Assembly: GCA_902568425.1 (NCBI GenBank)
Contig: CACFQM010000002.1
Span: 1-57,337 of the forward strand
Length of the DNA stretch: 57,337 bases
Origin: an uncultured Pelagibacteraceae bacterium
GTDB taxonomy: Bacteria > Pseudomonadota > Alphaproteobacteria > Pelagibacterales > Pelagibacteraceae
Reading direction: 5' to 3'
In this document: piece after piece, positions 25,333 through 27,650 of the stretch
Numbering within the stretch: the first letter of the stretch is position 1
How the letters are laid out: every line of letters begins with the position of its first letter
The notes under the pieces: generated by a model
The model's input: the letters and a program-made list of their open reading frames with translations, nothing else
Database searches by the model: none
Told to the model about the DNA's origin: nothing
Made by a program: the position numbers and the translations under genes

Positions 25333-25677
25333 ATGATGATTATAAAATATTTAAGCTTTCTGCTAGGTCTTATTTGGTCCTACTCTTTCATTAGGACGCA
25401 GTCTATTTTCAGTAAAAAAACAGCAATTTTATTTAAAGTCTTTATTTCTAAAGTTTCTTGGATAACATTCATTTTAGCTTGCTATTTTGGATACAAAAAT
25501 TTTAGTTTTAAGGCAACTTTAATAGGAATTGGTATATCTATTATTATAGTTCATTTAATGTTTTATTTTTCAAAAAAGTTTTTAGAAAACAGGTTTGGTG
25601 CAGATAAATTAGAAAAATCAAAAACTGTTTTGGAGTATTCTCTTATTTTTTTTATTGTTTATTTTATTATTTTTTAG
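25333..25677 (+). CDS. Hypothetical small membrane protein
   Basis: A 114-residue protein with about four hydrophobic segments (near 5-17, 34-52, 60-79 and 100-114) and a short polar loop FLENRFGADKLEKSKT. I do not recognise a family. It starts 20 bases from the divergent ccdA start and its last 11 bases overlap the convergent msrB gene, which is unremarkable for this compact genome. The open frame is clean and has typical AT-rich codon use, so it is probably real. Confidence 0.55.
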   Translation: MMIIKYLSFLLGLIWSYSFIRTQSIFSKKTAILFKVFISKVSWITFILACYFGYKNFSFKATLIGIGISIIIVHLMFYFSKKFLENRFGADKLEKSKTVLEYSLIFFIVYFIIF

Positions 25678-26041
25678 GCTTAAATATTAAGCAAAGACCG
25701 TTGTTACAGAACCTTTTTCCTGTGGGTTTGGGCCCATCATCAAATAAATGCCCGTGATGACCACCACATTTTTTACAGTGATATTCTGTTCTTTCGTAAC
25801 CAATGTGGGTATCTGTTTTGGTTTCAAAAACATCCGGCAGAGAAGAAAAAAAAGATGGCCAACCAGAGCCACTTTCGTACTTCATTGTTGAACTAAAAAG
25901 TTTTACTCCACACCCAGCACAATGATAATCGCCTTCCCTTTTTTCCTGATTTAAGTGGCTAGATCCAGGGGCTTCTGTACCTTCTTCTTTTAAAATATAA
26001 TTTTGCTCAGGAGTTAAATCACTGTTCCATTTATTGCTCAT
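25667..26041 (-). CDS. msrB: Peptide-methionine (R)-S-oxide reductase
   Basis: Repairs methionine-R-sulfoxide in proteins. The 124-residue protein has the four zinc cysteines Cys41/Cys44 (CAGC) and Cys89/Cys92 (CKKC), the GSGWPSFF substrate-pocket motif, the THIGYERTEYHC segment, GGHHGHLFDDGP, and the catalytic Cys112 in KRFCNNG. The usual RYCINSAALRF ending is altered to RFCNNGLCLIF, which adds a Cys117 five residues later; whether it acts as a resolving cysteine is unknown. It is divergent from the metY leader. Confidence 0.93.
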   Translation of the reverse strand: MSNKWNSDLTPEQNYILKEEGTEAPGSSHLNQEKREGDYHCAGCGVKLFSSTMKYESGSGWPSFFSSLPDVFETKTDTHIGYERTEYHCKKCGGHHGHLFDDGPKPTGKRFCNNGLCLIFKPKK

Positions 26042-26091: not shown

Positions 26092-26121
26092 TTGACTTTG
26101 TCATGTTAAATCTAATATAAT
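26092..26121 (+). promoter_or_regulatory. Sigma70 promoter for the metY riboswitch transcript
   Basis: TTGACT (26092-26097), an 18-base spacer and a perfect TATAAT (26116-26121). Transcription would begin near 26128, just before the SAM-II aptamer, which is exactly where it is needed. This is the best promoter match in the window. Confidence 0.8.
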
Positions 26122-26130
26122 TTTAGAATT

Positions 26131-26182
26131 AGCGCTGATTTAAGACAAATTGCGAGCGCTTTAAAAATCCGCTAAAGCGTTA
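26131..26182 (+). ncRNA. SAM-II riboswitch aptamer
   Basis: P1 is formed by AGCGCT at 26131-26136 and 26155-26160. The loop starts with GATTTAA and ends in TTGCG, and the 3' strand CGCTAAAG (26170-26177) can form the pseudoknot with TTGCG, the SAM-II layout. Binding of S-adenosylmethionine stabilises the pseudoknot. CTAAAGCG (26172-26179) is also fully complementary to CGCTTTAG (26199-26206), which lies across the arm and loop of the next terminator, so pseudoknot formation should free the terminator to form. Confidence 0.9.
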
Positions 26183-26192
26183 AATCTTTCGA

Positions 26193-26222
26193 GACCACCG
26201 CTTTAGTCGGTGGTTTTTTTTT
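26193..26222 (+). terminator. SAM-II-controlled intrinsic terminator
   Basis: Stem ACCACCG (26194-26200) / CGGTGGT (26208-26214) with loop CTTTAGT, followed by a run of nine T. It lies between the SAM-II and SAM-V aptamers and is the likely transcriptional output of SAM-II. Confidence 0.92.
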
Positions 26223-26242
26223 GAGATAGTCTCAAATTAAAA

Positions 26243-26300
26243 CTGGGCATTTGAACTGTATTGTACGCCTGACATTTCGTCGAAGTACTAAAAAAGGAGA
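26243..26300 (+). ncRNA. SAM-V riboswitch overlapping the metY ribosome site
   Basis: Contains GGGCATTTGAAC, TTGTACGCC, a small GAC/GTC hairpin (26271-26281) and AAGTACTAA. GGC (26246-26248) pairs with GCC (26267-26269) and GTAC (26263-26266) with GTAC (26285-26288), giving a pseudoknot like SAM-II in core. Its 3' end runs into the ribosome site GGAG (26296-26299), seven bases before the ATG, so SAM binding should block translation. This class is known upstream of metY in SAR11. Confidence 0.9.
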
Positions 26301-26306
26301 AAAAAA

Positions 26307-27602
26307 ATGGGAAATAAAATAAAAAATCCAGAAACTATTGGTTTGCATGGAGGAGAATATAGAAGTGATCCTGCTACTACATCAGTAGCTGTTCCAATAT
26401 ATCAAACAACTTCATATCAATTTAAGGATACAAAAACGGCAGCAAACTTGTTTGGATTGAAAGAGTTTGGAAATATTTATACGAGAATAAATAATCCAAC
26501 TTGCGATATTCTAGAAAAAAGAGTTGCAGCACTTGAAGGTGGATTAGCTGCAGTAGCGGTTGGTTCAGGCCAAGCTGCCTCTGCATTCTGCGTTCAAAAT
26601 GTCTGTCAGGCAGGAGATAATATTGTCTCTTCAACTGACTTATATGGTGGAACAGTAAACCTTTTTAAAAATACTTTGCGTATGCAAGGTATTGAAGTTA
26701 GATTTGCTGACCCTAAAGATCCTAAAAATTTCGAAAAACTAACAGATGAGAAAACAAGAGCTTACTACGGTGAGTCTTGTCCAAATCCTTCTCTTAGAAT
26801 TTTTCCAATTAAGGAAGTTGCAGATATTGGGAGAAAGCACGGTGTACCATTAATTATTGATAATACCGCAGCTCCAGTTATTTGCAGACCATTAGAACAT
26901 GGCGCAGCAATTGTGATGCACTCTTTAACAAAATATATTGGAGGTCATGGAACAACAATTGGTGGAATTATTGTTGATGGAGGAAACTTTGATTGGGCAG
27001 CGAATCCTAAGAGACAACCTTTGTTTAATGAACCAGACCCAAGTTATAATGGAGCAATTTGGGGAAGAGATGTTCCAAAAATGACAGGAGCAAATGTTGC
27101 GTTTGCAATTAGAGCTCGTGTTGTTTTACTTAGAGATCTTGGAGCACCTTTATCACCTTTCAACGCTTTCCAAATAATCCAAGGATTAGAAACTGTAGCT
27201 ATAAGAATGAAGCAACACTGTGCTAACGCAGAAAAAGTTGTTAAATTTTTAGAGACACAAAAGAAAGTTAAGAATGTTATCTATCCTACAAATCACCAAG
27301 GTGAAATAAGAGACAGAGCAAAAAGATATATGAAGGGTGGTTATGGTTCTTTAGTTGGAATGGACTTAGGTAGTTTAGAGGCTGGGTCAAAATTTATAGA
27401 CAACCTTAAGCTTCTATATCACGTTGCTAACATTGGAGATGCGAGAAGTTTAGCAATACATCCTGCATCTACTACTCACGGTCAGCTAAACGAAAAACAA
27501 TTAACTGAAGCTGGGGTTACACCTGGATATGTAAGACTTTCTATCGGTATTGAACATCCTGATGATATTATTGCCGATATCGAACAAGCATTAGCAGCAT
27601 AA
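26307..27602 (+). CDS. metY: O-acetylhomoserine sulfhydrylase (PLP-dependent)
   Basis: Makes homocysteine from an activated homoserine and sulfide, the entry of sulfur into methionine. The 431-residue length and N-terminal motif ETIGLHGGEYRSDPATTSVAVPIYQTTSYQF are typical of MetY. The cofactor lysine is in MHSLTKYIGGHGTTIGG, with the preceding IIDNTAAPVICRP stretch. The C-terminal SIGIEHPDDIIADIEQAL ends as in Cys/Met-metabolism PLP enzymes. Expression is under two stacked SAM riboswitches, one transcriptional and one translational. A terminator follows. Confidence 0.96.
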   Translation: MGNKIKNPETIGLHGGEYRSDPATTSVAVPIYQTTSYQFKDTKTAANLFGLKEFGNIYTRINNPTCDILEKRVAALEGGLAAVAVGSGQAASAFCVQNVCQAGDNIVSSTDLYGGTVNLFKNTLRMQGIEVRFADPKDPKNFEKLTDEKTRAYYGESCPNPSLRIFPIKEVADIGRKHGVPLIIDNTAAPVICRPLEHGAAIVMHSLTKYIGGHGTTIGGIIVDGGNFDWAANPKRQPLFNEPDPSYNGAIWGRDVPKMTGANVAFAIRARVVLLRDLGAPLSPFNAFQIIQGLETVAIRMKQHCANAEKVVKFLETQKKVKNVIYPTNHQGEIRDRAKRYMKGGYGSLVGMDLGSLEAGSKFIDNLKLLYHVANIGDARSLAIHPASTTHGQLNEKQLTEAGVTPGYVRLSIGIEHPDDIIADIEQALAA

Positions 27603-27614
27603 AAAAATTCTTTT

Positions 27615-27650
27615 TAGTACGTCAAGTAGCACACTTGACGTACTAATTCT
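27615..27650 (+). terminator. Intrinsic terminator after metY
   Basis: A 14-bp perfect stem (27615-27628 with 27634-27647; core AGTACGTCAAGT) around a five-base AGCAC loop, followed by TTCTTTAAT. The T-tract is weak but the stem is long, and the position 12 bases after the metY stop supports the call. Confidence 0.82.

Follow-up and report, generated by a model that had tools for sequence, protein, structure and literature searches.

A probable tandem of SAM-II-like and SAM-V riboswitches upstream of metY in a SAR11 genome, with a predicted antiterminator joining the first aptamer to the intervening terminator

Organisation of the metY leader

The window (the whole 57,337 nt stretch of DNA analysed) comes from a fragmentary genome of the Pelagibacteraceae (SAR11), which comprises 756,496 bases in 53 contigs and is listed as 66% complete. 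Between 26092 and 26306, 5' of metY, the order is promoter, SAM-II-like aptamer, intrinsic terminator, SAM-V aptamer, and each element that an earlier note had placed within these 215 bases was found where it had been described:

26092..26121, forward: sigma-70-type promoter, TTGACT-N18-TATAAT, matching the consensus at 11 of 12 positions
26131..26160, forward: SAM-II-like P1 stem AGCGCT/AGCGCT with the enclosed L1 (GATTTAAGACAAATTGCG), from sub-threshold SAM-II matches
26169..26179, forward: 5' strand of the predicted antiterminator, CCGCTAAAGCG, with an exact 8 bp core and, in the predicted nascent fold, 11 pairs and one bulge
26171..26180, forward: SAM-II P2 3' strand, GCTAAAGCGT, which would pair with L1 in the bound state
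26194..26222, forward: intrinsic terminator, ACCACCG-CTTTAGT-CGGTGGT plus a U-tract (26214-26222), the stem being invariant in 12 aligned relatives
26199..26210, forward: 3' strand of the predicted antiterminator, CGCTTTAG-(T)-CGG, overlapping the terminator loop and both stem arms
26220..26236, forward: small hairpin TTTGAGA-TAG-TCTCAAA between terminator and SAM-V, from the sequence and its predicted fold
26236..26302, forward: SAM-V riboswitch aptamer (Rfam RF01826, 72.6 bits, E 5.3e-10)
26294..26299, forward: Shine-Dalgarno sequence AAGGAG in the SAM-V 3' end, shortly 5' of the ATG at 26307
26307..27602, forward: metY, encoding an O-acetylhomoserine sulfhydrylase of 431 aa (TIGR01326, 564 bits against a cut-off of 495)

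The TIGR01326 score rules out the possibility that metY has been misnamed. Divergent from it lies msrB (25667-26041, reverse strand), encoding a peptide-methionine (R)-S-oxide reductase (TIGR00357), whilst a hairpin directly 3' of the metY stop codon (TTAGTACGTCAAG-TAGCACA-CTTGACGTACTAA, 27610-27650) is likely to be a 3' terminator. The promoter recurs in leaders of the same genus, with variable flanks. The hairpin at 26220-26236 is possibly a spacer; relatives have partly paired variants of it, some with GAGA/TCTC replaced by GAAA/TTTC, and in others it is disrupted. A phage search at the locus returned short protein-coding matches in metY only, and sub-threshold Rfam matches to GibS, freshwater-2, sroD and others were judged to be chance or T-tract matches.

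The earlier note had proposed covariance-model searches for both aptamers. For SAM-V, the RF01826 match is well above the gathering score of 41 bits, which excludes the absence of this element and bears out the proposal; the Shine-Dalgarno sequence of a methionine-cycle gene lies at its 3' end, as in the published structure, where it falls within SAM-V P2a (PMC6061858). Binding of SAM by this aptamer is predicted from the sequence. For SAM-II the searches remained below the gathering scores (24.5 against 44 bits for RF01726 and 21.7 against 36 for RF00521), and an RF00521 profile search of the source genome gave no match; the SAM-II elements of SAR11 relatives also fall short of the Rfam cut-off. 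Nevertheless, the SAM-contacting bases are present and P2b covaries. In bhmT SAM-II, SAM is contacted by U10, U11, A20, U21, U22, U46, A47 and A49 (PMC11508383). All eight are identical in the window when it is aligned with the bhmT leader L189, T26139, T26140, A26149, T26150 and T26151 being those in P1/L1 by transfer of the bhmT numbering. L189 belongs to genome G011, which we take to be Ca. P. ubique HTCC1062, and reproduces the published numbering of the bhmT RNA, including U82-U90.

The 6 bp P1 stem and L1 are invariant in 12 aligned relatives. P2a is formed by the P2 3' strand with 26150-26154, and P2b by A26145 and C26146 with T26180 and G26179. Amongst 125 sequences, the P2b combinations were TC/GA (72), AC/GT (20), TT/GA (17), GC/GC (4), GC/GT (4) and TT/AA (2), with AC/GA, in five, the sole frequent mismatch; P2a varies among G-C, G-U, U-A and A-U, with 24 non-pairing G/A cases. 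Hence a P1 stem is combined with a P2 pseudoknot that is supported by covariation, as in SAM-II. Because all eight contact bases are present and P2b covaries in relatives, we accept the element as SAM-II-like, the suffix being retained because the Rfam score lies under the cut-off; that it binds SAM would follow from these sequence features. A competing off-aptamer hairpin within SAM-II (CGCTTTA 26157-26163 with TAAAGCG 26173-26179, -5.1 kcal/mol) was rejected, as relatives do not retain it (CGCTTAA, CGCTATA).

Pairing of the SAM-II-like strand with the terminator

The terminator consists of arms A26194-G26200 and C26208-T26214, a CTTTAGT loop and nine T residues from 26214; two overlapping terminator-like sites were found here, against 0.3 expected in shuffled sequences. 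The P2 segment CTAAAGCG (26172-26179) and the segment CGCTTTAG (26199-26206) are exact reverse complements, forming an 8 bp core. In the predicted fold, CCG 26169-26171 extends this helix by pairing with C26208-G26210 around a bulged U26207, such that both terminator arms lose bases. As the helix also takes C26208-G26210 from the 3' arm, the antiterminator would be a direct competitor of the terminator. The pairing claimed by the earlier note is therefore exact, with comparative and energetic support, but was drawn too small, comprising 11 pairs that include the start of the 3' arm; the predicted alternative helix (26169-26179 with 26199-26210) overlaps both P2 and the two arms of the terminator. 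In minimum-energy folds of the growing RNA, which ignore pseudoknots, kinetics and SAM, the probability of this helix is 0.98-0.99 from 26206 to 26211; at 26214 the two states have probabilities of 0.62 and 0.38, and at 26223 that of the terminator is 0.92. Such values, if the model holds, are what a kinetic switch would show.

Across 125 distinct leaders of relatives, a mean of 7.64 of the 8 core pairs is preserved, against 7.15 ± 0.04 with shuffled partners (none of 2000 being as good), and shifted registers keep only 1.95-3.88; for the 41 distinct strand-loop combinations the corresponding values are 7.41 and 6.81 ± 0.10 (none of 5000). Two main classes, in which GCTAAAGCG faces CGCTTTAG and GCTAAATAG faces CTATTT, differ by the substitution of GCG/CGC for TAG/CTA on both strands. 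The helix formed in the predicted nascent fold of all 125 leaders, with a mean of -14.1 kcal/mol, and giving leaders of the GCG class the partners of the NAG class, and vice versa, would weaken it from -14 to -7.6 kcal/mol, a cost of around 6 kcal/mol.

Since neither strand varies among metY leaders from the genus of the window, the evidence for covariation comes from bhmT leaders. On a tree of bhmT coding sequences, A at position y of P2 and T at position y' of the loop change together in five of six independent comparisons, the reverse never being seen (p 0.0625); y' has a partner within the stem of the terminator as well, which may account for part of its covariation. Leader classes are scattered over this tree, which may reflect leaders moving as cassettes and makes the number of independent co-changes uncertain. 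One bhmT subgroup (CTAAANAG/CTCTTTAG) retains a mismatch. The pattern of 'exactly one mismatch' has a standard deviation of 0.53, compared with 1.12 for shuffled partners, and is treated as a lead only, since 88 of the mismatches sit at a single position and the figure is inflated by shared ancestry.

In a pattern scan, 18 of 397 Pelagibacteraceae genomes, the window's included, had SAM-II with SAM-V after it; 17 of these tandems have the window type of terminator, and the eighteenth belongs to the compact type treated further on. Of the 169 genomes of sister genus g6, 161 were matched by a covariance model covering SAM-II and the terminator together (131 matches scoring at least 84 bits); in genus g3 (Pelagibacter) its matches were strong in about 27 of the 250 genomes, mostly before bhmT. 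A scan for BhmT gave 80 named loci, 70 with the terminator type. The same tandem stands before an open reading frame starting MIKQTPVGSLPR in leaders L051 and L074; this N-terminal sequence looks like that of a MetE-type methionine synthase, not like that of MetY. The bhmT leader L108 (genome G026) has a SAM-II-like element with neither terminator nor SAM-V. In the bhmT leaders L189, L194, L215 and L223, the SAM-V Shine-Dalgarno sequence (AAGGAGAAAAG) precedes a complementary CTTTT(T)TCTCC and, later, a second ribosome site 5' of bhmT; an extra anti-Shine-Dalgarno hairpin or a short open reading frame may add control there.

Two independent designs agree with a pairing between P2 strand and terminator. 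The single SAM-II upstream of metX in genus g6 (L249-L256) has a terminator, GCCCAG-TTTAG-CTGGGC, with a stem unrelated to that in the window; its loop contains UUUAGC, the complement of GCUAAA in the P2 strand. In other Alphaproteobacteria, 61 SAM-II leaders with a terminator were compared, and in 45 of them the P2 strand shares a complementary run of at least six bases with the 5' arm or loop (mean run in all 61 leaders 6.08, against 4.55 ± 0.12 when shuffled). There it is the distal P2b (GGUCGG), and not the CUAAA core, that pairs with the 5' arm, and neither TTTAG nor TTAGC occurs in any of 54 alphaproteobacterial SAM-II terminators found in 84 leaders. The use of the P2 strand as an antiterminator hence looks like a general principle of SAM-II, with SAR11 in a shifted register.

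Most of the metY leaders examined in genus g3 (L001-L030 and L190-L247) are without a terminator. Around 25 bases 5' of SAM-V they have a compact element resembling SAM-II, GCC-GATTTGATCCTATTGCG-GGC...GCTAAAAAGGA; leader L221, presumably that of HTCC1062 metY, belongs to this type. A TCGG lies exactly six bases 5' of the SAM-V core in all 74 distinct compact leaders, as opposed to 4.8 with shuffled linkers, and is complementary to CCGA, from which the P1 strand of SAM-II and the first bases of the core are formed. In this type, too, P2b covaries (TCC/GGA, ACC/GGT, TCT/AGA), and none of the compact elements scanned reached the Rfam SAM-II cut-off. In Pelagibacter metY the aptamer pair may have been rebuilt without a terminator, with the UCGG by SAM-V pairing with the CCGA of SAM-II such that one aptamer gates the other. 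No description of the compact element was found in the literature outside the original 2009 report.

Proposed mechanism and competing explanations

The order of SAM-II-like element, intrinsic terminator and SAM-V at the ribosome site is that of a tandem with two mechanisms (PMC9481103), and we consider it probable that the leader is an OFF-switch on metY in which the SAM-II strand doubles as an antiterminator against the terminator. When SAM is scarce, the SAM-II 3' strand CCGCUAAAGCG would be captured by the terminator loop and the ends of its arms (CGCUUUAG-U-CGG) once these are transcribed; this would exclude the terminator, allowing RNA polymerase to continue, and the empty SAM-V would leave the Shine-Dalgarno sequence exposed. 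SAM bound to SAM-II would instead lock the 3' strand in the pseudoknot, so that the terminator could fold and transcription end, and in transcripts that escape, SAM on SAM-V would bury the Shine-Dalgarno sequence as a second repression. Whilst the elements, their pairing and its conservation are shown by the analysis, we infer that both aptamers bind SAM, that termination depends on it and that translation is controlled. The division of labour given in the earlier note, with SAM-II acting by termination and SAM-V by translation, is likely to be right. Its two thresholds of repression on metY are plausible, and the published affinities disagree on their order: 1.2 µM for bhmT SAM-II, 15 µM for metY SAM-V and 120 µM for bhmT SAM-V in one study (PMC5069961), and 4.4 and 0.5 µM by calorimetry on the two SAM-V in another (PMC6061858).

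An unlikely reading is that SAM-II is a relic or masked, SAM-V alone regulating metY and the terminator being constitutive or inactive. The SAM-II scores under the Rfam cut-offs would suit it, as would the behaviour of the full-length bhmT tandem RNA, the SAM-II half of which does not respond to SAM, for a cause its authors do not understand (PMC11508383). However, a relic would be expected to decay, and the contact bases, P2b, terminator and antiterminator have been kept across genera and two genes. Masking, moreover, would be expected of an RNA that contains an antiterminator and is fully folded: in the predicted fold of the published bhmT RNA the antiterminator has 12 pairs, one bulge and a probability of 0.997, with the terminator near zero. 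Masking by the antiterminator would thus explain the unresponsiveness, and fits it. The strongest reported SAM-dependent changes in the linker of that RNA start at C68 (PMC11508383), the position at which the terminator loop begins in the shared numbering. An antisense oligonucleotide on U83-U90 and downstream restored the SAM-II response (PMC11508383); as masking leaves this rescue unexplained, something further must act in the bhmT RNA.

It is very unlikely that the complementarity is a by-product, the whole terminator hairpin being conserved and the conserved CUAAA core matching its loop by chance. The invariance of both strands in the metY leaders of the window's genus would allow this, yet P2 and loop variants covary in bhmT leaders, leaders lacking the top pair of the terminator (CGCTTTAGATAGG, CGCTTTAGAAGG) still have the loop complement, and the unrelated metX terminator shows the same relation. 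Still more remote is a pseudoknot of loop and P2 strand alongside the terminator stem, stabilising the terminator rather than excluding it. The 8 bp core and the 5' arm have just two bases in common (26199-26200), so a 5 bp lower stem could coexist with it; against this, an H-type fold would have to cross an 8 bp helix with at most three bases (26207-26209), a geometry that is probably unfavourable, and the extended helix also occupies C26208-G26210. The antiterminator is the preferred reading: what the earlier note described is genuine, with more support for its mechanism than the sequence alone could give.

Relation to known SAM-II and SAM-V systems

SAR11 bacteria rank with the most abundant marine cells, and their use of sulphur is steered largely by riboswitches. 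The tandem type has been known since 2009, Poiata et al. (2009) reportedly having described a SAM-II/SAM-V tandem at bhmT of Pelagibacter ubique, and the metY tandem is a further case of it. A terminator always lies between the two aptamers in published tandems, of which 120 examples were known at first and 149 later (PMC9481103). The earlier note gave the tandem as known for SAR11 metY, but the literature outside the 2009 original assigns it to bhmT, with metY of Ca. P. ubique having SAM-V only (PMC5069961, PMC9481103).

How the SAM-II half communicates with the terminator is a matter on which we found no account outside the 2009 original, and work on the bhmT tandem, the original again aside, does not name an antiterminator (PMC9481103, PMC5069961, PMC11508383). 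Two published studies report an unresponsive SAM-II half and give no reason; the mechanisms of SAM-II have been described as not established by experiment (PMC2258182), and for the metA terminator of S. meliloti no antiterminator driven by SAM-II could be predicted (PMC9373788). The present analysis contributes an antiterminator defined base by base, with comparative support across 125 leaders. The pairing predicts mutations that should wake the SAM-II domain, making the puzzle directly testable.

The published bhmT tandem (PMC9481103, PMC5069961, PMC11508383) resembles that in the window in the order of SAM-II, terminator, SAM-V and gene, in the nine-U tract and in the SAM-contacting bases; the P2 strand GCUAAAGCG and loop CGCUUUAG are identical between leader L189 and the window. 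They differ in the gene controlled, metY here and bhmT in Ca. P. ubique, and in the SAM-V Shine-Dalgarno sequence being just 5' of the start codon in the window, whereas the bhmT start lies further downstream. The crystallised metY SAM-V (PMC6061858) shares with the window the SAM-V core, the gene and the position of the Shine-Dalgarno sequence in its 3' part. The Pelagibacter metY leader (L221) has the compact element in place of the terminator-linked SAM-II of the window, which suggests that the crystallised leader has a second, SAM-II-like element in front, outside the construct. Other alphaproteobacterial SAM-II with terminators (RF00521; Corbino et al. 2005, PMC1273637) likewise have a pseudoknot aptamer a few bases 3' of the promoter and a P2 3' strand complementary to the terminator; however, in these the distal P2b faces the 5' arm, whereas in the window it is the SAM-contacting CUAAA core, with three further bases, that pairs mainly with the loop.
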